From contig NZ_CP007174.1 of assembly GCF_000730285.1 (NCBI RefSeq), positions 2,046,001 to 2,110,000 of the forward strand: a stretch of DNA of 64,000 nt, given 5' to 3'. The translations under genes were made by a program, and so were the position numbers. Position 1 is the first letter of the stretch, and each line of letters opens with the position of its first letter. Below are positions 33,921 to 45,215 of this stretch, in pieces. The stretch comes from Candidatus Nitrososphaera evergladensis SR1. Lineage in GTDB: Archaea > Thermoproteota > Nitrososphaeria > Nitrososphaerales > Nitrososphaeraceae. Under the pieces are notes generated by a model. It searched no databases, was not told where the DNA came from, and saw nothing but the letters and a program-made list of their open reading frames with translations.

Positions 33921-33978
33921 AGAAAAACCTTATGACAGCAAGGATTTTATGTGAATCTCCCATCGATTGTGCTCAAGT

Positions 33979-34098
33979 GCTCCGGTGGTGTAGTGGCTAT
34001 CCTGCCGGCAACCATCCTCCGGCAAGGGGCTGCACAGTCCGGTCAAGCATTGTGGCCTTTCGAGTCGCAGATCCCGGGTTCAAATCCCGGCCGGAGCA
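33979..34098 (+). tRNA. tRNA-Glu (UUC) with D-loop intron
   Basis: Acceptor GCTCCGG (33979-33985) pairs with CCGGAGC (34091-34097), discriminator A 34098. D-stem GTGT/GCAT, anticodon stem GTGGC/GTCGC with loop C-T-TTC-G-A, T-stem CCGGG/CCCGG with loop TTCAAAT. A 44-base insert at 33995-34038, bordered by repeated AGT, must be removed to give a normal D-loop (AGTCCGGTCAA) and a 76-base tRNA. This is a non-canonical intron position. The 3' exon from the anticodon loop onward is the left attachment site of the integrated element. Confidence 0.85.
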
Positions 34099-34100
34099 CT
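34055..34100. repeat. Left attachment site (attL core)
   Basis: The 46-bp core begins just before the anticodon loop of tRNA-Glu (GCCTTTCGAG) and ends two bases after the discriminator (GGAGCACT). It is identical to 45170-45215. It completes the tRNA gene on the chromosome side and is in frame with the C-terminal integrase part. Confidence 0.92.
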
Positions 34101-35051
34101 ACTCTCTCATGTTATACCAAGTCCGATAGTAACCCTGACCACCACCTTCAGCCCTTACCATTAGCAGTAAGGTCGTTCTTACCACAGACATTAAGCTCGA
34201 AAGTCACAACGCTTGACCGGACTGTGCAACCCGACTGGAATGGCTTCCGTCAATACCTAAACAACATACAAAATCCAAAGGTAGCCAACGACACCTTGCG
34301 CTATGCCCGCCAACACTATCGCATTCTGTGGGGAGAAGGAATGGAAGAGCTTCTTCAGCTATCACAAGGGAAGCAACGACACGTTATGAAGGCAATGTCT
34401 TCTCTCTCAAAGTATCTTGGGTGTTACAATCATTGGAAGGAAATCAGAGAAGGCTACCAATTGAAATGGTCTCAACAGGACAGCCTTGAACTGTTCCATA
34501 ACATAATCGACAATGAGCATAATTACAGTGCCATGATAGAATGGCTGAAAGAAGCTTGTGCCAAATCACCCAAGTCGTATGCAGATATCCTGATCTATGC
34601 CACTTTAACTGGCCTAAGAGCACAAGAGGTCATAGATAGCATACGCTTGATCAAGACTACTCCTGAAAATTACCTGAAAAAAGATTCAATGATTCTAGAG
34701 CACTATCGATATCCCAATCTCTTTATCAGACGAACCAAGAAAGCATACGTGAGTATAGTAAGCGAAGACATACTACAATTAGCGAAGACAGCGGGCAATC
34801 ACAGCTATATGGCCATTCGAATGGCGCTGGAAGAACGAGGAATGGCTACCAATATGAAGTATTGCCGCAAGATTTTCTCCACCTATCTTCGTATGAATGG
34901 CATTGAATCAGAGTTAATCGACCTACTTCAAGGGAGGATACCAAAGACTGTATTTGCGAGGCATTATTTCAGGCCAGACTTTGAAAAAGACATGGTAAGA
35001 ATAAGGAATGTACTTGAAAAATTGAAGGGTGAAATTACACTGCCAGCATGA
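34056..35051 (+). CDS. Integrase, C-terminal part int(C)
   Basis: This segment encodes the catalytic part of an archaeal SSV-type tyrosine recombinase. The conserved Arg is in TGLRAQEV, the second box in KYCRKIFSTYLRMNGIESE, and the His-Tyr nucleophile in RIPKTVFARHYFRP. The frame is open back through the attachment core, with no good start codon between, so it is only complete when joined to int(N) at 44979-45215. The joined protein would be about 395 residues, with Arg near 250 and Tyr near 367. Alone, this part is probably not translated. Confidence 0.9.
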   Translation, partial: PFESQIPGSNPGRSTTLSCYTKSDSNPDHHLQPLPLAVRSFLPQTLSSKVTTLDRTVQPDWNGFRQYLNNIQNPKVANDTLRYARQHYRILWGEGMEELLQLSQGKQRHVMKAMSSLSKYLGCYNHWKEIREGYQLKWSQQDSLELFHNIIDNEHNYSAMIEWLKEACAKSPKSYADILIYATLTGLRAQEVIDSIRLIKTTPENYLKKDSMILEHYRYPNLFIRRTKKAYVSIVSEDILQLAKTAGNHSYMAIRMALEERGMATNMKYCRKIFSTYLRMNGIESELIDLLQGRIPKTVFARHYFRPDFEKDMVRIRNVLEKLKGEITLPA

Positions 35052-35898: not shown

Positions 35899-36450
35899 CT
35901 ACAACCAAACCTTTCTGGTAATGGCAAAATCTTCAATGATACCTACTTCTGATCCCCTGTTTACCAGAGTAACACGTATTCTGGAAGCATAGGGAGTATA
36001 AGGAATTGGAGTGAATGCTAACGAGTATTTCTGCCCTTCTTGGCCAGTAATATCAGCTTCTTCCGTACTCTTATAGCGTAAAATGTATGGGTGTCTGGGG
36101 TTGCTTTTTCCCGCCGGGTCAGGGGAGATTCCTGCCACCGGTGCCACTTCGCCCGCACCTACGCCCCAATTCTTGGTTATCAAATCGACAAACGTTTCAT
36201 GCCCTTGTTGGATACTGACACCAGCTCCACTAGTACCCCAGATCTCTACGTTCAGACCAAGATATCGATAATTCCCATGGAGTTCGAATAAGTAAAGCTC
36301 TCCGCTTTCTTTTTGATCTATTACAACTCTTTCTTCTCTGCCCTCTAATGCCAAGTTGCTAATGTCATTTTGAACGAATTGATACTTTCTGCCAAAGTTG
36401 TCGGTTTGAACAGCGTGTATGGATTGATTTATGGACTTATTTGTTGACAT
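35899..36450 (-). CDS. Beta-rich protein, possible structural component
   Basis: A 183-residue protein predicted to be mostly beta-strand (GELYLFELHGNYRYLGLNVEIWG, KYSLAFTPIPYTPYASRIRVTLV) without catalytic motifs or membrane helices. The strand-rich, soluble pattern is compatible with a virion or sheath protein, but nothing proves it. It is the last gene of a leftward group with 36458 and 36701. Confidence 0.6.
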   Translation of the reverse strand: MSTNKSINQSIHAVQTDNFGRKYQFVQNDISNLALEGREERVVIDQKESGELYLFELHGNYRYLGLNVEIWGTSGAGVSIQQGHETFVDLITKNWGVGAGEVAPVAGISPDPAGKSNPRHPYILRYKSTEEADITGQEGQKYSLAFTPIPYTPYASRIRVTLVNRGSEVGIIEDFAITRKVWL

Positions 36451-36700: not shown

Positions 36701-37255
36701 CTAAGTATAGGAGAAATCTGCATAGGAAATCTTACTATTTACTGATCTAGATAACTCGTTTGCCCGGTATGAGCCGCCGTTACTTGTAGGGGTAAATGAA
36801 TAGAGAAAACTATTGGCCCGGCCATCGTTCTGTGCTCTGATATCTCGGGGTGTCATTTTCCTTAGATTACCTTGGGGAGCTGAAGCGTACGCTTGCGAGG
36901 GTGTAAAAGTCCTATCCCATATTGCTCTCGCTTGTGAAACTGCACTGGTAACGTGATTCTGGAGATTGAAGCCCGCTGCACTGGCCATTTTGCTTATGAC
37001 CGTGCCAACAACAGCTCCAGCTCCAAGATTGACAAATGTCTTTTGCTTGAGTACGTAGCCGGTGCCGGCTGCGGCGAGTCCAAGCCCACCGGTCAGTGCA
37101 TCTGCTTTTGTCAGTGATACCATTCCTGTTAATGGAATGATAGGAGAATTAAGGACTGGTTGCGAGTTTGCAATCTGATTTACTGCAAAGCCGCCCACAG
37201 CTCCTAACGCCAACTGAACAACGTCATTAGAACCTAAATTTGTAAGACTAGTCAT
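36701..37255 (-). CDS. Hydrophobic Gly/Ala-rich protein, possible virion or membrane protein
   Basis: A 184-residue protein with Gly/Ala-rich hydrophobic stretches (VQLALGAVGGFAVNQIA, LTGGLGLAAAGTGYVL, LGAGAVVGTVISKMASAAGF) in the first 100 residues and a polar Ser/Tyr-rich tail. Small viruses of archaea often have such membrane-embedded structural proteins. The gene follows a TATA box and a palindrome (37272-37283) just before its ATG. It is the first of three leftward genes. Confidence 0.62.
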   Translation of the reverse strand: MTSLTNLGSNDVVQLALGAVGGFAVNQIANSQPVLNSPIIPLTGMVSLTKADALTGGLGLAAAGTGYVLKQKTFVNLGAGAVVGTVISKMASAAGFNLQNHVTSAVSQARAIWDRTFTPSQAYASAPQGNLRKMTPRDIRAQNDGRANSFLYSFTPTSNGGSYRANELSRSVNSKISYADFSYT

Positions 37256-37620: not shown

Positions 37621-38118
37621 ATGACAGCAAGTATCAGTTTTTCAGGGTCAGGATTTGACTTTGACATTAACATGTACGGATTCACACCCGGCGAATTAGT
37701 TACCATCGTCTTTACCAACGTGAACAACTCTAATGATATGTATTCGATCGACACCTATGTAGGTTACAATCCGATACATGTCCTGCAGCAACATTTCCCG
37801 GCGGAAGCTGAAGGCAATTACCACGTCACGGCCGTAGGTTCAACTGGCACAAAGGCGGAAAATACTTTGACTATAGGTTATCCTACCGTGCAGGGCATTC
37901 TGCCAAATACAGAAGTGCCTCTGGAAAATATCACAAATCAAGGTGGAGAGACGGTACCAATATTCGGGCAGCTCGAATCGATTGGTGGAGCAGCTGTACC
38001 TTCAGCTATTCCTACTCAAACTTCACAGAATAATTCAATTCCATTAGTCTTGGCAGGTGGAGCTCTGTTAGGAGGTCTGTTGCTAATATCTGGTGGAAAG
38101 AAGAAAGTGTTTGCCTGA
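37621..38118 (+). CDS. Surface-anchored beta-domain protein
   Basis: A 165-residue protein with an Ig-like beta domain (residues about 5-95, FTPGELVTIVFTNVNNSND, HVTAVGSTGTKAENTLTIGY), a Pro/Ser/Thr/Asn-rich stalk, and a C-terminal helix (PLVLAGGALLGGLLLIS) ending in the basic GGKKKVFA. No N-terminal signal peptide is evident. It could be a tail-anchored surface or virion protein of the element. TATA and AT-rich sequence place the transcript start almost at the ATG. Confidence 0.65.
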   Translation: MTASISFSGSGFDFDINMYGFTPGELVTIVFTNVNNSNDMYSIDTYVGYNPIHVLQQHFPAEAEGNYHVTAVGSTGTKAENTLTIGYPTVQGILPNTEVPLENITNQGGETVPIFGQLESIGGAAVPSAIPTQTSQNNSIPLVLAGGALLGGLLLISGGKKKVFA

Positions 38119-38218: not shown

Positions 38219-38917
38219 TTGCAAAATAGTGATCTAACTCTTACGAAAGCACTTTTCAAAACTGCACTTTCTGATTATAATGCTGCAAAGCTATTATGGG
38301 AGAAGGGATTCTATCCACAATGCATTTTCTACTTAGAACAAGCCTTTGAAAAGGCAAGCAAATCTATTATTGCGCACTTTTCCGTTAACCTCAAAAAATG
38401 TCCTCAAGAGAAAATTGAAAAAGAATTGAAGAAATCTTTCGGGCACAATAACAAGTATTCTGCCTATACGGTAGTAATGGAGCTACTTGAAGCTGACAAG
38501 TGGAAGAAACAACAATCCGGGAAGTGGAACGAAAAACAGGCTAACGTTGCTTTTGCTTTTGCTGAAGGTCATAAGAAAACAAAGCAGAATTACAAAATTG
38601 AACAATATTGCAATATGGTCGATTACTACTATTCGAAATACAATCAATTCATGGCACACCCTAAACTAAGACATCCTGCTAATGCAATCTTGGCGTTAAA
38701 TTGGGCATTGTCCAGCTGCTTTGAAGATATGGAGAATAGAGCAAGATACCCGCTTTCAGAACACGGATACTTGAATCTAGATAAACTAAACCAAGAAAAG
38801 AACAAAGACTGTTACAAATTGCTCCTTATCATGGTAAGAGACTACATTAACCGAACGCCTGATTTGATTAATGTTGCAAACGAGCAATTACCACCGTATT
38901 ATAACAGACAGAGATAG
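38219..38917 (+). CDS. HEPN-domain-like protein
   Basis: A 232-residue helical protein starting at TTG 38219. The N-terminal region (KTALSDYNAAKLLWEKGFYPQCIFYLEQAFEKASKSIIAHFS) matches the HEPN pattern of a two-helix pair with A-x2-Y and E-K-A-x-K positions. A catalytic R-x4-6-H is not clear. HEPN proteins are often RNases or partners of nucleotidyltransferases in toxin-antitoxin and defence systems. No nucleotidyltransferase gene is adjacent. Confidence 0.65.
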   Translation: MQNSDLTLTKALFKTALSDYNAAKLLWEKGFYPQCIFYLEQAFEKASKSIIAHFSVNLKKCPQEKIEKELKKSFGHNNKYSAYTVVMELLEADKWKKQQSGKWNEKQANVAFAFAEGHKKTKQNYKIEQYCNMVDYYYSKYNQFMAHPKLRHPANAILALNWALSSCFEDMENRARYPLSEHGYLNLDKLNQEKNKDCYKLLLIMVRDYINRTPDLINVANEQLPPYYNRQR

Positions 38918-38971: not shown

Positions 38972-39163
38972 CTAGTTAGCTAACAGCGTATGCACTACTC
39001 TTTCGAACCAATCTTCAAGCGAAGTTACACTAGAGGTTACACTGGAAGTTCCACTATAAACCACAGTAATATTGTGTCCACTAGATCTGCCGTTCGAAGT
39101 TACACTAGAAAAATGAATGGGTGTGGTGGTGTTAAGTAGGAAGTCGTCTATCAGGTCAGACAT
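38972..39163 (-). CDS. Ser/Thr/Val-repeat protein, 63 aa
   Basis: ATG 39163 follows the MCM gene stop by one base, so the two are probably translated together. The middle (FSSVTSNGRSSGHNITVVYSGTSSVTSSVTSLEDW) contains repeated SVTS units, and the DNA shows repeated GTTACACTAGA-like blocks. The ends are helical (DLIDDFLLN and DWFERVVHTLL). Function unknown. Confidence 0.5.
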   Translation of the reverse strand: MSDLIDDFLLNTTTPIHFSSVTSNGRSSGHNITVVYSGTSSVTSSVTSLEDWFERVVHTLLAN

Positions 39164-39164
39164 T

Positions 39165-41297
39165 CTAGTTACCACCTTTTTTGAATCCGACACTTAGGCA
39201 GGAATTGCCAGAAGCTATGACTATTTCTTCGTCTTTATGTGCAGGACAGGCACAGGATTTGCCTTTTGGTTCATGGTCGTAGATATCATTTGTTTCTGGC
39301 ATTGACGGAACCCTCCATTTTAGGACTAATGGTTTCTTTTGTATGATCTCGACTCTGCTATCCGTGCATTCTTGGAACATTTCAAGCAGGTTTCGTAATT
39401 TCTTGTTCTCTCTGGTTACAAGGTTGACTCCTAGGTAATTGCCAACTCTTTCGTTGTTTTTGCAAGCTATTCTCGCTGCTTCTACGAATTCAATTGGTTT
39501 TTTGGCGTTCTCGACAACTTTGACTATCTCCTTGAATGCGACTTCTATTGGATCTGCACGAACTGTCTCTGCAAGTTGTCCTTGCTCTGCCAACATTGTA
39601 GTGTAATATTCCATTAATTCAATGACAAGCTCTTTGTCCACTACAGTTTCTAAGTGAAGTCGTGCATATGCTGAAGAGAGTCTAAAAAGAGCGTCAAGAT
39701 TTCTGTTTGTCGCCCTGCCGGTAGATCTCAAACTAATCCAGTATTCTTTGAGCATTTCCCTTGCTTCGGTTGTGAAAGTTGGATAGATTGTCTTGGCGTG
39801 AGCTATGTATTTTCTAAGGAAGTTGTAGTTGTGTTCAATATGTCTTTCATCATAGTCCATTTTTGCATCTGCATAATCCCTCATAGATTCTTCAGTCACA
39901 AAGTCACGGAATACAAACTTCTGATCAAATCTATCCAATACTTCTTTCTTGACTGGTATTTCACTCATGTCAATCGAATGATCACTATTCCAAGTTGAAC
40001 CGATTGGGTTGCACGTTGCAATTATGGTAGTTGGGGAATCGATTTCTTGACGAATGCCATACTTATCAATCGTGAAATCCCCTTCTTCCATGACATCATG
40101 CAAGTGTTTCTGATCTTCAAAGCTCATTGTTCCAATTTCGTTGATTGCACAAATGCCATTCTTTGACAGCGGAATTGATCCAAGTCTCAATACTGCATTT
40201 TCATTCTCCATTACAATAATCGCTGTCAGACTCTTTCCGCTTGCGCCCTGAGCGCTTACATACCGACTGTTAGGAACAAGTCTTATGGATTCTCTAGCTA
40301 GCATGGACTTTGCTGTACCGGGTGCTCCTACAAAGAGTGAATGTATTCTACCACGTTTTCCATTCTCTGGTGCTCCGACAGCAGATAACAGGATTCCTAG
40401 TTTCTTGTCTTTGTGACCAACTACGTTAGGAGCTACCATTGATACTAGTCTTTCACGAAGAGTTGGTATGTATGTGACCTTTGTGACGCTAGTGACCTTT
40501 GTGCCCAGATCCTTGAACCTATAGATATTTTCTACGTCCTTTTCAGTTACCTTCAGCTCTTGTCTTCTGTGATATTTGATAGATTCTGCATGTAGGACAG
40601 TAGTTAGCTTCTTTGTTATGAATTTCATTATGTGACTTGTGCCCTTGATTTCTACTAGCTCCCCGGCAATGACATTACAAGTATCCTTTCCATACAGTAT
40701 GATATCCAGACGTTCTAGATCTCCTGTAGGATTAGGATCTTGGAGTTGTATAGAGAGAGCGGTAGCATAGTCAAACTTGGGTAGGTTTTTCTGTCCACAG
40801 TTTCTACATTTTTTTGGTATACCAGATTCTTCAAATTTTGGAGGATTGTGCTCTGTCTCGTCATACTGGTCACAAGAGTTACACCCTATCATTGTCTTTG
40901 TAATAACCTTGTAAGGTAATGATTGACTAACGATTACTCCTTTGACAGATAGTTTCACGGAAGACGTTGTACGTAATGCTTCAGAAATTGTCATAGACAC
41001 AAAATTCTGGTCACATTGGGCACAAGGGTCACTATGTGGATTAGATTCTTCTGCCATAGTCGAGTGTGAAGGTCTTTCGCCGGCGATAATCAACCTCGTG
41101 TTGAATCTCTTTAGCCGTGTAATTTCGCCTTTAAATCTATCCGCTATCTCAACTGGCAACAACTTGACGGCTTCGATAAACGTGAGTGAATCAATCGGGA
41201 ACCTACTATCACGAGATATCCCTTCATTCTCTAATGCAGACTTTAGCTCAATTGGCATAGTCGCAAGGAATTGATCAAGTTCTTCTCTTGTTGTCAT
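39165..41297 (-). CDS. Element-encoded MCM-like replicative helicase
   Basis: A 710-residue MCM-family AAA+ protein. The N-terminal OB region has a zinc ribbon (CNSC...CRNC) near 138-170. The motor has Walker A GAPGTAKSML near 320, a Walker B region ICAINEIGTM near 380 in which the usual first Asp is Asn, sensor-1-like IIATCNPIG, and the arginine finger in VLDRFDQKF. It probably unwinds the element's origin. The sequence departs markedly from chromosomal MCM, and the Walker B change makes full ATPase activity uncertain. Confidence 0.85.
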   Translation of the reverse strand: MTTREELDQFLATMPIELKSALENEGISRDSRFPIDSLTFIEAVKLLPVEIADRFKGEITRLKRFNTRLIIAGERPSHSTMAEESNPHSDPCAQCDQNFVSMTISEALRTTSSVKLSVKGVIVSQSLPYKVITKTMIGCNSCDQYDETEHNPPKFEESGIPKKCRNCGQKNLPKFDYATALSIQLQDPNPTGDLERLDIILYGKDTCNVIAGELVEIKGTSHIMKFITKKLTTVLHAESIKYHRRQELKVTEKDVENIYRFKDLGTKVTSVTKVTYIPTLRERLVSMVAPNVVGHKDKKLGILLSAVGAPENGKRGRIHSLFVGAPGTAKSMLARESIRLVPNSRYVSAQGASGKSLTAIIVMENENAVLRLGSIPLSKNGICAINEIGTMSFEDQKHLHDVMEEGDFTIDKYGIRQEIDSPTTIIATCNPIGSTWNSDHSIDMSEIPVKKEVLDRFDQKFVFRDFVTEESMRDYADAKMDYDERHIEHNYNFLRKYIAHAKTIYPTFTTEAREMLKEYWISLRSTGRATNRNLDALFRLSSAYARLHLETVVDKELVIELMEYYTTMLAEQGQLAETVRADPIEVAFKEIVKVVENAKKPIEFVEAARIACKNNERVGNYLGVNLVTRENKKLRNLLEMFQECTDSRVEIIQKKPLVLKWRVPSMPETNDIYDHEPKGKSCACPAHKDEEIVIASGNSCLSVGFKKGGN

Positions 41298-41300
41298 TTT

Positions 41301-41546
41301 TCAATTCACCTTTACGGCGTGGAGCATTGCAGTACGGAAGAGTATGCGAATATGCTCGACTGAAGCGTACCAAATATTGTAGAGGTTACAACGTTCTTCT
41401 ATCAATTGGTGAATCTTTTGCAATGACGTACCATAGGCGACAGAGATTGGTGTCTCACAACCATCTGTGCTGTAAATGGTAATCACTTCACCGTTAATGC
41501 CAATGTGGTCAATGCGTCTTTCAGCGTCAAAATGAGATACCATCAT
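41301..41546 (-). CDS. Hypothetical protein, 81 aa
   Basis: A small mixed alpha/beta protein (MVSHFDAERRIDHIGINGEVITIYSTDG, TSLQKIHQLIEERCNLYNIWYA) whose stop lies 3 bases before the MCM start codon. It is therefore likely to be co-transcribed with the helicase. An initiator or helicase-loading role is possible from position only. Confidence 0.55.
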   Translation of the reverse strand: MMVSHFDAERRIDHIGINGEVITIYSTDGCETPISVAYGTSLQKIHQLIEERCNLYNIWYASVEHIRILFRTAMLHAVKVN

Positions 41547-41648: not shown

Positions 41649-41840
41649 CTATACACTGTTCACCACCTTTGAATCTGGTAGGTTAACATCTGATTGCGGA
41701 GCTGCAAACTCTGCGATCTTATTTCTTTCCACGTTAACTTTTGACCAGCAAGAAGGACACGAAGTATTTTGCCTCAATGACCTTGTATTCCAAGTCCAAG
41801 AACACTTTGGACATTTTATCGGTATTTGATTACCTAACAT
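41649..41840 (-). CDS. Zinc-ribbon protein, 63 aa
   Basis: The N-terminal half (IPIKCPKCSWTWNTRSLRQNTSCPSCWSKVNV) is a C-x2-C...C-x2-C zinc ribbon, common in small nucleic-acid-binding proteins. The rest is polar. It is the first gene of the leftward group (zinc ribbon, 81-aa protein, MCM, repeat protein) facing the palindromic region, so it may aid replication or its control. Confidence 0.65.
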   Translation of the reverse strand: MLGNQIPIKCPKCSWTWNTRSLRQNTSCPSCWSKVNVERNKIAEFAAPQSDVNLPDSKVVNSV

Positions 41841-42185
41841 TTTACAAGTAGTAGTAGCACTAACAGATATATAAACTTTTAATCTATCTATAGCTTTCGC
41901 TACAATTTAGTATAATACTGTACCACTAATAAACTTACCGATTCAGCGTTGGACGGTAACACGTGTTAGAAATGCCATTTTTGATTTTTCAAAAGTTTTA
42001 ACTACACTATGAAAAGTGAAAAAGATCATGTGTTACCGTGTTGATTTTTGTCAAAGTCTGCAGAAATTCGTGCTCAAAAATGGTGGTAACAGCAGTAGCG
42101 GCAGTAACACGTGCCACAATGCTGTATACTATACATAATGTAATCATTCTTTACCTAATACCAGACGTTATAGGACATGTTACAA

Positions 42186-42201
42186 GTGTTACCGTGTTAC
42201 C
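42186..42201. repeat. Tandem GTGTTACC iterons
   Basis: GTGTTACC is repeated twice back-to-back. Further GTGTTAC or GTAACAC copies lie at 41956-41968, 42029-42036 and 42104-42110, so the left half of the region has an iteron-like array. Confidence 0.65.
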
Positions 42202-42325
42202 AAACTAGTTATCTCTGATACTACATGCCTCTGAATAACACATTCGTCAATTATCGCACCAAGTGAAAGGGTCTTGACCTTGGCACATTAGTGTAGTCCA
42301 ATGGATACAAGAGACAACAATATTG

Positions 42326-42356
42326 TTACACTATTAATAGTGTAAAACACCGGTGT
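42326..42356. repeat. Palindrome module 1
   Basis: TTACACTATTAATAGTGTAA (20 bp, perfect) is followed after one base by the perfect palindrome ACACCGGTGT. A related TACCGGTGTA occurs 22 bases later (42379-42388). Confidence 0.75.
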
Positions 42357-42564
42357 AATCCATTAGAAATAGGTCAATACCGGTGTAAAAATATGTAAAC
42401 GTTATGTAAAAGTAAAAGAAAGATCCCGAAAAACCACCAATTTCAACCATTCTGTCTCATGCGATCAAACCTACAATTTTCGTTTGCTTTTATTTCTTTG
42501 TACATATTTGCAGATCTAAAAATCATTTTTCCAATGGATTATTAGTGTTTATTGTTAGTATTTT

Positions 42565-42603
42565 ACACTATTAATAGTGTGTTTTACCGGTCACACCGGT
42601 GTG
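42565..42603. repeat. Palindrome module 2
   Basis: ACACTATTAATAGTGT (42565-42580) shares its 16 bases with module 1. It is followed by ACCGGT and the 12-bp palindrome CACACCGGTGTG (42592-42603). The repeated order of the two palindrome types is the main evidence that the modules are functional. Confidence 0.75.
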
Positions 42604-42763
42604 CCTCCAATGTATCCAGTAGAAATAATAGTGTTGCAATATTATTCACCAAAAACCGACCATGCTACTGTAATAACTATTCCAAATCTTAGTCTTTTTT
42701 GTTAGTTTTGGTTAAACATTTAAATAATAGTGTAAATAATAATATGATATCGTATATAATAAT

Positions 42764-43180
42764 TTGACAGAAGAAAATTTGACGGATAATTTAACAAAAG
42801 AAAGTTTACCTCAAAGCACAGAACAAGTTAATACAGCACAAAGTGGCAAAGAAGAAACGACTTCGTTCATACCACAAATCGATTCCCAAACTCAGCGCAT
42901 GATAATCGAGCGTGGCGTGGACTTTTTGGAGAAGATGGCAGGTGTTCAACCAAAAAAGCCGGAGCAAAAGCAGTTTGGCGTTTACTTCAGTCCAGAAGAG
43001 ATCCAGCTTCTTGAAATATACGCTAGGGAGTTATTCAATGACGGTTATATCAGTCGCAACTCGATTGGATCACTTTGTAGATTCTGCACTATTGCCTTTC
43101 TAAAGAACTCGCAAAACCAAGCATTGGAAAATGTTCGTGCAAGACAAGCGGCGCAAACAAAAGAAAGTGGTCAACAATGA
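42764..43180 (+). CDS. Hypothetical protein, 138 aa
   Basis: Starts at TTG 42764 (the ATG-free start follows a TATA box CATTTAAATAATAG about 40 bases upstream). The first 40 residues are polar Asn/Thr/Glu-rich; the second half (FGVYFSPEEIQLLEIYARELFNDGYISRNSIGSLCRFCTIAFLKN) is a compact helical domain. Its layout resembles that of the last protein of the block (44282). It starts a rightward block of six genes. Function unknown. Confidence 0.6.
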   Translation: MTEENLTDNLTKESLPQSTEQVNTAQSGKEETTSFIPQIDSQTQRMIIERGVDFLEKMAGVQPKKPEQKQFGVYFSPEEIQLLEIYARELFNDGYISRNSIGSLCRFCTIAFLKNSQNQALENVRARQAAQTKESGQQ

Positions 43181-43611
43181 CAGTCTACATTATAGACGCT
43201 GATAATATCGACTTTGAAGGGATTAACAAGTTCAAAAAAATGGGTTTGATAACTAATGGAGAACCTATCCTTCGTAGCATTGTACTTGAGCAGACAATCC
43301 AGAACAAAGACTGGCCAGTGTTCAGGATAGACACACCTTATGGGAAGTTCAAGGAAATCTTTGAAAAATTCTTACCTGAATTAATGACGGTTGTATCTGG
43401 CAATGCTGACTCGAAAACATTAAGCGATAACGCTGGAGTTGACACTGAAGTTGACACAGAAACCAAGAAAAAAGAAGTTGATAAGGTCAAAGTTGAAAAT
43501 GCTGATCCTGAGATACCTCAATATCTTCAGACTATGCAACAAGTTGTTAACACTGTCGGAGTACCAATCCTTGAAAAGTTTGGTGGTGGATTAGCGCAAA
43601 AGGTGAATTAG
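43177..43611 (+). CDS. Hypothetical protein, 144 aa
   Basis: Overlaps the previous gene by 4 bases (ATGA), a sign of coupled translation. The N-terminus MTVYIIDADNIDFEGINKFKKMGL contains an Asp pair that loosely resembles P-loop or NYN-type starts but does not match them. The middle is charged (VDTEVDTETKKKEVDKVKVEN) and the end helical. Function unknown. Confidence 0.55.
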   Translation: MTVYIIDADNIDFEGINKFKKMGLITNGEPILRSIVLEQTIQNKDWPVFRIDTPYGKFKEIFEKFLPELMTVVSGNADSKTLSDNAGVDTEVDTETKKKEVDKVKVENADPEIPQYLQTMQQVVNTVGVPILEKFGGGLAQKVN

Positions 43612-43616
43612 AAAAA

Positions 43617-43994
43617 ATGGACACAATAAAAGATAACGTGAATTGCACTGTCTACCTCAACCACCACTTTGCCAAAACGATTGACACATACTTAGATTCA
43701 TTCAAGTCGCTCCGCTTTGACGTAAAACAGACGAGGGCGAGTGCAATCAAACACATGGCAGCCTCCTATTCTTCAATATTCAATCTGGACAATATGGCAT
43801 TGCTCAAAAAGTATGATGAGCTCCAGAGAACAACCGCCATTGGCAAGTCCTCCAAAGATCTCTACTCAGAGTTAAAACAAGAAGCGAACAATGCAGTAAA
43901 GGAAAAGCTCACCAACGCAATCAACAATTTGAGTCAACGAGCGGGGAAGTTTGCAACGTTTGAAGCTCTCGACTCTTTGAGAAACAGGCGATAG
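43617..43994 (+). CDS. Hypothetical helical protein, 125 aa
   Basis: A predominantly helical, Lys/Asn-rich protein (VYLNHHFAKTIDTYLDSFKSLRFDVKQTRASAIKHMAASYS, KQEANNAVKEKLTNAINNLSQRAG). Five bases separate it from the previous gene. No motif is recognised; it may bind DNA or a partner protein. Confidence 0.58.
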   Translation: MDTIKDNVNCTVYLNHHFAKTIDTYLDSFKSLRFDVKQTRASAIKHMAASYSSIFNLDNMALLKKYDELQRTTAIGKSSKDLYSELKQEANNAVKEKLTNAINNLSQRAGKFATFEALDSLRNRR

Positions 43995-43996
43995 AA

Positions 43997-44110
43997 ATGA
44001 ACAAGTTAACTATACCGCCAATCATGGAGAGAGAAGAAGCATTAGAAAGAGTTGCGCTATTCCTCATAGCAAAAGAGGTATCGGTACTTCGTAAATGGTT
44101 AGGGGAATAA
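43997..44110 (+). CDS. Short helical protein, 37 aa
   Basis: ATG 43997 directly after the previous stop, TAA at 44110. The peptide MNKLTIPPIMEREEALERVA and onward is helical with a basic and hydrophobic end (VSVLRKWLGE). It fits between its neighbours with no gap, so coding is plausible. Function unknown. Confidence 0.5.
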   Translation: MNKLTIPPIMEREEALERVALFLIAKEVSVLRKWLGE

Positions 44111-44112
44111 GA

Positions 44113-44277
44113 ATGGGCAGACCAAGGAAGAAGAAGCAAGAAAAGAGAACATTCAGCCGAACAGAATGGGAAAGGATCCGCAGAGAAATGCCTTCATTCA
44201 ATGAACAAGAGTTAAAAGAATTCTTTGACTTTCCCCGGATAGTAGCTGATCCAAAAATGGATTCTGGGTATCTTTAG
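44113..44277 (+). CDS. Basic small protein, 54 aa
   Basis: ATG 44113 begins MGRPRKKKQEKRTFSRTEWERIRREMPSFNEQELKEFFDF. The basic start resembles an AT-hook (GRPRKKK) or nuclear-type basic patch, followed by two helices. It may bind DNA. Two bases separate it from the preceding stop. Confidence 0.55.
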   Translation: MGRPRKKKQEKRTFSRTEWERIRREMPSFNEQELKEFFDFPRIVADPKMDSGYL

Positions 44278-44281
44278 CAAG

Positions 44282-44698
44282 GTGGGCAGATTGGGAGACA
44301 TAAACAGTTTCAATGTTGACGACATTCCACTTTCAAAGAAGTCTAGTAATGTGGTAGCAGGTGACATTAATGTTGGAAAGAAGTCTCCAGCGGAGTTAGA
44401 GCAAGTTCATATCGAAGAGGATTTACAGACACAATTAGCAGTAACTGATTCAATCTTTTCATTACAATCATTAGACGATAAAACCCAGAGAGAGTTAGCG
44501 GAGTTTGCCGGGTATTACTATGAACGTGGAAGGATAACCCAACCAACTATACAGGCGTTAATCCAATACCACTTTGACAAAATAATGGACAGTATAAGAT
44601 CAGAGTACGAGAGCCATATTTTCAATAAGCAATTGGAAGAAGCAATGATGCGATCAATGGGCATAAAACCTGAAGATATAGACAAATTCAAATTTTAA
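44282..44698 (+). CDS. Hypothetical protein, 138 aa
   Basis: Starts at GTG 44282. An acidic N-terminus (LGDINSFNVDDIPLSKKSS) is followed by a helical domain (LAEFAGYYYERGRITQPTIQALIQYHFDKIMDSIRSEYESH). The order of acidic region and helical domain is like the protein at 42764, and the helical parts may be distantly related. It ends the rightward six-gene block. Function unknown. Confidence 0.58.
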   Translation: MGRLGDINSFNVDDIPLSKKSSNVVAGDINVGKKSPAELEQVHIEEDLQTQLAVTDSIFSLQSLDDKTQRELAEFAGYYYERGRITQPTIQALIQYHFDKIMDSIRSEYESHIFNKQLEEAMMRSMGIKPEDIDKFKF

Positions 44699-44978: not shown

Positions 44979-45215
44979 ATGGCGCTTCTCACAGCTTCTG
45001 AACTAGCTTGGTTGAAAGGTGAAAAACAAGTTTCTAAAGGCTATGAACATAAAATGAAAAGTGTAGTCAAGAAGAAGCTGCATACTTTCCTAGCTGAGGA
45101 ATATGCCCTAATTGTAAGAAAGTGCTACGGACGGAATTTGAACGAATTACCAGATATGGTAAGAAATTTGCCTTTCGAGTCGCAGATCCCGGGTTCAAAT
45201 CCCGGCCGGAGCACT
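44979..45215 (+). CDS. Integrase, N-terminal part int(N)
   Basis: From ATG 44979 it encodes MALLTASELAWLKGEKQV and a basic helical domain (KMKSVVKKKLHTFLAEEYALIVRKC), then PFESQIPGSNPGRST, which is the translated attachment core. The same 15 codons, in the same frame, open int(C) at 34056. Joining the two through the core gives one integrase. In the integrated state the frame runs past the core into chromosomal sequence and ends at 45293, so the truncated product is probably inactive. Confidence 0.85.
45170..45215. repeat. Right attachment site (attR core)
   Basis: An exact 46-bp copy of 34055-34100. It forms a partial tRNA-Glu 3' exon without the 5' half, so it is not a tRNA gene. It marks the right end of the element. 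Confidence 0.92.

Follow-up and report, generated by a model that had tools for sequence, protein, structure and literature searches.

A candidate replication origin and control region in an integrated plasmid-like element of Candidatus Nitrososphaera evergladensis SR1

The described element nearest to the locus analysed here is NitEve-E3, which Krupovic et al. (2019, PMC6563490) described as a cryptic integrated element of the soil ammonia-oxidising archaeon Candidatus Nitrososphaera evergladensis SR1. Both NitEve-E3 and the element that we call E1 encode an SSV1-like integrase that is split on integration and an MCM without PolB (PMC6563490), and E1 is very probably NitEve-E3 itself. The text on NitEve-E3 in that paper describes no repeats, no origin and no core shared with a sister element, and in the literature searched we found no description of the origin of any thaumarchaeal mobile element. 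More distant systems offer partial likenesses to the intergenic gap of E1 considered here. Iteron plasmid origins also carry tandem short repeats beside replication genes; however, they are served by a Rep-type initiator, whereas none was recognised in E1, which has an archaeal MCM in its place and only putative binding sites. In archaeal plasmids of the pT26-2 family, which often exchange modules, a predicted origin rich in repeats accompanies the rep gene, which may be an MCM; these origins lie close to that gene in 12 of 15 cases and show no consensus (PMC6972569). No sequence or core-gene relation of the family to E1 was found. The pRN1 minimal replicon likewise combines a small repressor gene and a replicase gene with a nearby origin, although its origin takes the form of a stem-loop and lies downstream of the gene for the PrimPol-helicase (PMC4234260). 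Finally, the ORB dyads of archaeal chromosomal origins (PMC4010727) resemble dyads in two modules of the E1 gap; unlike those origins, E1 has no adjoining orc1/cdc6 gene, and its boxes are degenerate and absent from the sister element, E2.

The integrated element E1 and its genes

Coordinates refer to the window, the 64-kb stretch of chromosome that was analysed, unless prefixed C1. E1 is an 11.1-kb integrated element limited by 46-bp perfect direct repeats at 34055–34100 and 45170–45215. The repeats lie at a tRNA gene and the integrase gene is split by integration, as in integrative plasmid-like elements, and the two integrase parts fuse in frame to give 396 aa. The features of E1 that bear on the gap are as follows.

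34055–34100, plus strand: attL, the left copy of the 46-bp repeat, which forms the 3' part of a tRNA-Arg(CCG) gene with an intron (33979–34099)
34055–35051, plus strand: C-terminal part of the split SSV-type integrase (ORF 33951–35051; Pfam Phage_integr_3, 5e-8)
39020–39106, minus strand: repeats AGTGKAACYTCS just beyond the MCM 3' end, three in tandem (period 12) and one more
39165–41297, minus strand: MCM-family helicase of E1 (Pfam MCM, 6.6e-41)
41301–41546, minus strand: small MCM-operon gene that has an E2 counterpart (E1/E2 DNA match)
41649–41840, minus strand: first small gene of the MCM operon, zinc-ribbon-like with CxxC...CxxC (weak NCBIfam zinc-finger match)
41841–42763, no strand: intergenic candidate origin/control region
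42764–43180, plus strand: first gene of the divergent operon, with 28% identity to its E2 homologue
43177–44698, plus strand: other small genes of the divergent operon (43177–43611, 43617–43994 and 44282–44698), with homology to E2
44979–45215, plus strand: N-terminal part of the split SSV-type integrase
45170–45215, plus strand: attR, second copy of the 46-bp repeat

Among the E1 genes scanned, no Pfam match to PolB and no match to an Orc1/Cdc6 or Rep-type initiator was found, leaving the MCM as the only replication protein of this kind, in agreement with the earlier note, which had named no recognised initiator gene other than the MCM-like protein and small neighbours. No ParA/SegA-type ATPase was found in the same gene set. 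The three Orc1/Cdc6 genes of the genome (C1:134, 65978 and 1584119) are far from E1, and none adjoins the gap. By sequence inspection the 42764 protein is perhaps of the ribbon-helix-helix kind; structure predictions for the 42764 and 43617 proteins had low confidence, and Foldseek searches with them were uninformative.

Other E1 genes deserve mention in their own right. The gene at 38219–38917 encodes a HEPN-domain protein (Pfam 6.2e-7, with a weak AbiV match), possibly a toxin or defence gene. Three proteins without a family match (35899–36450, 36701–37255 and 37621–38118) are common to E1 and E2, two of them with long hydrophobic stretches; a role in a virion or envelope is conceivable, even though the published description of the element calls it cryptic. 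The usual Walker B motif of cellular MCM proteins is IDE. In the E1 group of MCM proteins (39165–41297 in E1) it reads INE, with the asparagine invariant in all seven proteins aligned.

Repeats, palindromes and the sister element E2

The gap at 41841–42763 is non-coding, its flanking open reading frames stopping at 41840 on the minus strand and starting at 42764 on the plus strand. Its repeats were tested against 2000 dinucleotide shuffles, and its layout is given below.

41955–42042, no strand: first iteron group, GGTAACAC with TAACACGTGTTA at 41955–41968 and GTGTTACCGTGTT at 42030–42042
42086–42112, minus strand: iterons GTAACAGCA.GTAGCGGCA.GTAACACGT, period 9, middle copy degenerate
42178–42201, plus strand: iterons TGTTACAAG.TGTTACCG.TGTTACC, spacing 9 then 8, including the tandem GTGTTACC pair
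42243–42279, plus strand: core, 37 bp, 95% identical to E2
42287–42400, no strand: module A, with TCCAATGGAT, AACAATATTGTT, TTACACTATTAATAGTGTAA (42326–42345), ACACCGGTGT (42347–42356), ATCCATTAGAAATA (42358–42371) and ATACCGGTGT (42377–42386)
42407–42516, plus strand: block 2, between the modules and conserved with E2 (Smith-Waterman score 40, reached by 1 of 2000 shuffles)
42525–42640, no strand: module B, with TCCAATGGAT, ACACTATTAATAGTGT (42565–42580), CACACCGGTGTG (42592–42603) and the ORB-like ATCCAGTAGAAATAATAGTGTT (42614–42635)
42719–42735, plus strand: TATA-like TTTAAATA, a reading by eye, followed by a TAGTGTAA half-site

Perfect palindromes include TTACACTATTAATAGTGTAA of 20 bp, ACACTATTAATAGTGT of 16 bp, ACACCGGTGT, CACACCGGTGTG, AACAATATTGTT (42316–42327) and TAACACGTGTTA (41957–41968). 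Six palindromes of at least 10 bp occur, against 1.55 in shuffles (P = 0.004), and the two of at least 16 bp were equalled in none of the 2000. The same holds for the counts of GTGTTACC (four copies) and GTGTTAC (five copies), which comprise a tandem GTGTTACC/GTGTTAC pair at 42186–42201 and further sites at 42030 (plus strand), 41956 and 42104 (both minus strand). Modules A and B follow a common order of TCCAATGGAT, ACACTATTAATAGTGT, CCGGTGT types and ATCCAKTAGAAATA. The limits of the gap, its place beside the helicase operon (now identified as the MCM operon of an integrated plasmid-like element), the palindromes in two modules of like order, and the tandem pair with its additional GTGTTAC sites had all been proposed in the earlier note, and each holds up, the palindromes and GTGTTAC sites lying where they had been placed and far above chance expectation. 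The 37-bp core, block 2, the ORB-like boxes inside the modules and the TAGTGTAA half-sites, found at 42728 and at the MCM 3' end, are additions to that account.

Measured across the whole of E1, repeat density has its maximum at 41951–42650 (72, against 26 for the next counting window). As at iteron-type origins, the GTGTTAC sites include short tandem copies in a non-coding stretch next to replication genes; a recognised Rep initiator gene, also typical of such origins, was not found among the E1 genes scanned. The cumulative GC skew of E1 has its minimum at 42688, which could be due to divergent transcription.

Gap DNA has a single other match in the genome, a 37-bp stretch at C1:1027424 on the same chromosome, which lies in an intergenic region of E2, a second integrated element (L005 and L006, about C1:1019000–1031200). 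E1 and E2 share two blocks with 81% and 87% DNA identity that include coat-like and small-protein genes, and in place of the E1 MCM, E2 encodes a PrimPol protein (PF09250) and a 514-aa protein without a family match, a difference that looks like module exchange. The plan of the gap is common to both elements: iterons, core, module A, block 2, module B and gene start, with 484 or 485 bp from the end of the core to the gene start, a difference of at most 1 bp. In contrast, all repeat families differ. The left arm carries GTGTTAC in E1 and TGACGGA in E2, and the right arm carries ACACTATTAATAGTGT, ACCGGTGT and TCCANTGGA in E1 versus GTACCAGA and AATAAAGAT in E2. The repeat content of each of the four half-regions exceeds that of every shuffle, and repeat density in E2 peaks at the same place as in E1. 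The small proteins of the two elements are 28–30% identical.

The earlier note had made conservation of the modules in related elements a check on the origin, and had named absence of these palindromes there as refuting it. Taken literally, that absence is observed, since E2 has neither the palindromes nor GTGTTAC sites. However, E2 carries different repeats at corresponding positions about the shared core, an outcome predicted by divergence in the specificity of an origin or control region. Conservation of the plan is known from this one pair. No third element with the core or plan was found in 70 genomes of the family or in viral and genome collections, and no relatives of E1 in viral contigs or other genomes were recovered by searches with the core, the 42764 protein, the MCM (viral contigs) or the 36701 and 44282 proteins. 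Several alternative accounts of the core were discarded. A match as a CRISPR spacer was ruled out, the other copy lying in an intergenic region of the sister element; a relation to ORB was unsupported (gapped alignment P 0.09–0.18); and a match with three mismatches in genome G363 is probably due to chance, its surroundings reading as coding. A match to ATCCATTAGAAATA in the MCM relative L074, which sits within an open reading frame, was judged a coincidence.

Origin, operators or partition site

On balance, we consider it moderately probable that the gap serves the 11.1-kb integrative plasmid-like element, once excised and circular, as its replication origin and control region. The small genes flanking the gap would supply element-encoded proteins that attach to the GTGTTAC iterons towards the MCM and to the palindromic modules in the opposite arm, and that open or mark the DNA in the vicinity of the conserved core and block 2. 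The bound proteins may then recruit the MCM helicase of E1 for loading in the gap, after which host polymerases would copy the DNA from a predicted start there, and the same sites probably also control both divergent operons. The att repeats, the split integrase and the MCM of E1, the sites above chance expectation and the repeat peak in the gap support this proposal, as do the like position of the E2 peak and the like core, spacing and block 2 in the face of different repeats in both arms and the change from MCM to PrimPol. The GC-skew minimum in the gap, with the caveat on transcription given above, and the predicted origins close to rep genes in the pT26-2 family point the same way. Since the repeats were swapped together with the helicase/primase and the small proteins diverged while the core and block 2 were kept, the sites are best explained as recognised by element proteins around a shared origin core. 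The strongest evidence is this comparison with E2: the swap around a kept core fits a plasmid-type origin/control region whose sites would co-evolve with element-encoded proteins.

Some points count against an origin in the gap: the two operons of E1 have no other divergent promoter region between them, the proposed conservation comes from a single pair of elements, and the relatives of the E1 MCM carry repeat pairs at the MCM 3' end rather than in an upstream gap. The main rival is plain regulation of the two divergent operons, which we regard as somewhat unlikely. The gap would then be a bidirectional regulatory region only, with the palindromes as operators for a repressor of the 42764–44698 operon and GTGTTAC as operators of the MCM operon, and the origin would lie elsewhere in the element, with the repeats beyond the MCM 3' end as one candidate site. 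Such a location is conceivable because E1 has direct repeats there and its MCM relatives have their pairs there. The divergent operons do encode small, possibly DNA-binding proteins, the E2 repeats co-diverge with the small proteins, repeats are present at the MCM 3' end as well, and a TAGTGTAA half-site directly follows the TATA-like sequence. However, for two small operons the region is large, almost 900 bp long and with numerous sites in both arms, most of the sites lie at least 80 bp upstream of the TATA-like sequence, and the core and block 2 are conserved where operators are not expected. The origin-like character claimed in the earlier note is partly supported, among other things by the plan and core kept in E2, but control of divergent promoters explains part of the right half of the gap equally well.

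A second alternative is an origin served by the host initiator, with Orc1/Cdc6 attached to the ORB-like boxes of both modules and loading the E1 MCM. Nearly all of the 30 orc1/cdc6 loci of the family have a tandem ORB pair, spaced by about 61 bp, upstream of orc1; only three loci cut by a contig end depart from this. The ORBs of these pairs, in L010 (1093 and 1155) and in orc1 loci L020–L048, have sequences close to YTCCAGTGGAAAYAAAGGGGTY, and the pair is a probable signature of chromosomal origins in the family. A matrix built from 30 distinct host-family ORB sequences gives its top score in the window at 42614–42635, a score reached by 1 of 3000 shuffles, and four distinct mini-ORB boxes fall inside 332 bp. 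A 20-bp ORB pattern matches only the two chromosomal ORBs and the 42614 site in the 2.95-Mb genome, but the pattern was drawn to include that site and a reversed control gave 4 matches at one mismatch. The gap holds one good match to the host ORB consensus with several half-sites. Against this, E2, in the same host, holds none. Host DNA of 863 kb has one site of equal score and a larger cluster, of six boxes whose even 15-bp spacing points to a tandem repeat. Moreover, a plain identity of 15 of 22 to ORBs of the host itself is unremarkable, and the boxes are not independent since they are located in duplicated modules. No orc1/cdc6 gene adjoins the gap. As E2 lacks the boxes, dependence on host Orc1 is a minority reading, possible in principle and not the leading one, and we consider it improbable. 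A partition (centromere-like) site bound by the small element proteins is very improbable: short-period tandem and palindromic sites adjoin genes for small proteins that are maybe ribbon-helix-helix by inspection, but that fold is unproven and the E1 genes scanned include no ParA/SegA-type ATPase.

Period-9 iterons near related MCM genes

We examined 20 loci with relatives of the E1 MCM from the same family, Nitrososphaeraceae; a scan of 300 genomes of the order found MCMs as similar to that of E1 only in this family. At 11 of the 20 loci under strict settings (L074, L077, L079, L081, L083, L084, L085, L086, L088, L091 and L093), tandem repeats of exactly 9-bp period form an inverted pair close to where the MCM match ends; relaxed settings bring the number to 17 (adding L075, L076, L078, L087, L089 and L092). 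The strict pairs lie from 134 bp before to 604 bp after the match end, at or inside the 3' ends of these mobile-element MCM genes. Periods of 8 and 10–12 did not occur at these loci, and period-9 pairs were absent from 30 replicates of a second-order Markov null and from 221 kb of control sequence. In host DNA, 863 kb gave only two matches, overlapping around a GGTACC palindrome. Ten other archaeal viruses and plasmids lacked period-9 pairs near the MCM 3' end. Thermococcus plasmid pTN3 (L178) has a period-9 inverted tandem pair of the GTTTGAAC type at about 1664–1746, in the 5' part of its MCM gene.

In most cases the pair falls inside the MCM reading frame. The two repeat blocks encode different peptides in four of the five loci inspected and a similar peptide in the fifth, so the constraint seems to be on the DNA. 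Many of the period-9 iterons conform to TGAYGNNNN, as do the iterons of E2. A family-wide scan for the TGAYG triplet pattern was swamped by GAT-type simple repeats, and a C-terminal zinc finger was discarded as a common iteron reader, being present at only three of the MCM loci. As a tentative proposal, mobile elements of Nitrososphaeraceae may share an origin code of inverted 9-bp-period iteron pairs, near TGAYGNNNN and mostly written into the 3' part of the MCM coding sequence; E1 and its PrimPol sister would be derived members with intergenic sites, E2 keeping TGACG and E1 having changed to TGTTAC. If this is true, the gene for the helicase itself contains the site at which the helicase is loaded.

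The kind of region proposed here, a plasmid-type origin/control region, is already known, and the probable example is new. Genetic tools for ammonia-oxidising archaea are scarce, and a compact candidate origin with its own helicase would offer a defined fragment for vector building. The E1/E2 pair, in which the core is kept while every repeat is swapped and E2 has a primase-polymerase in place of the helicase, would constitute a natural experiment on the specificity of archaeal plasmid origins.
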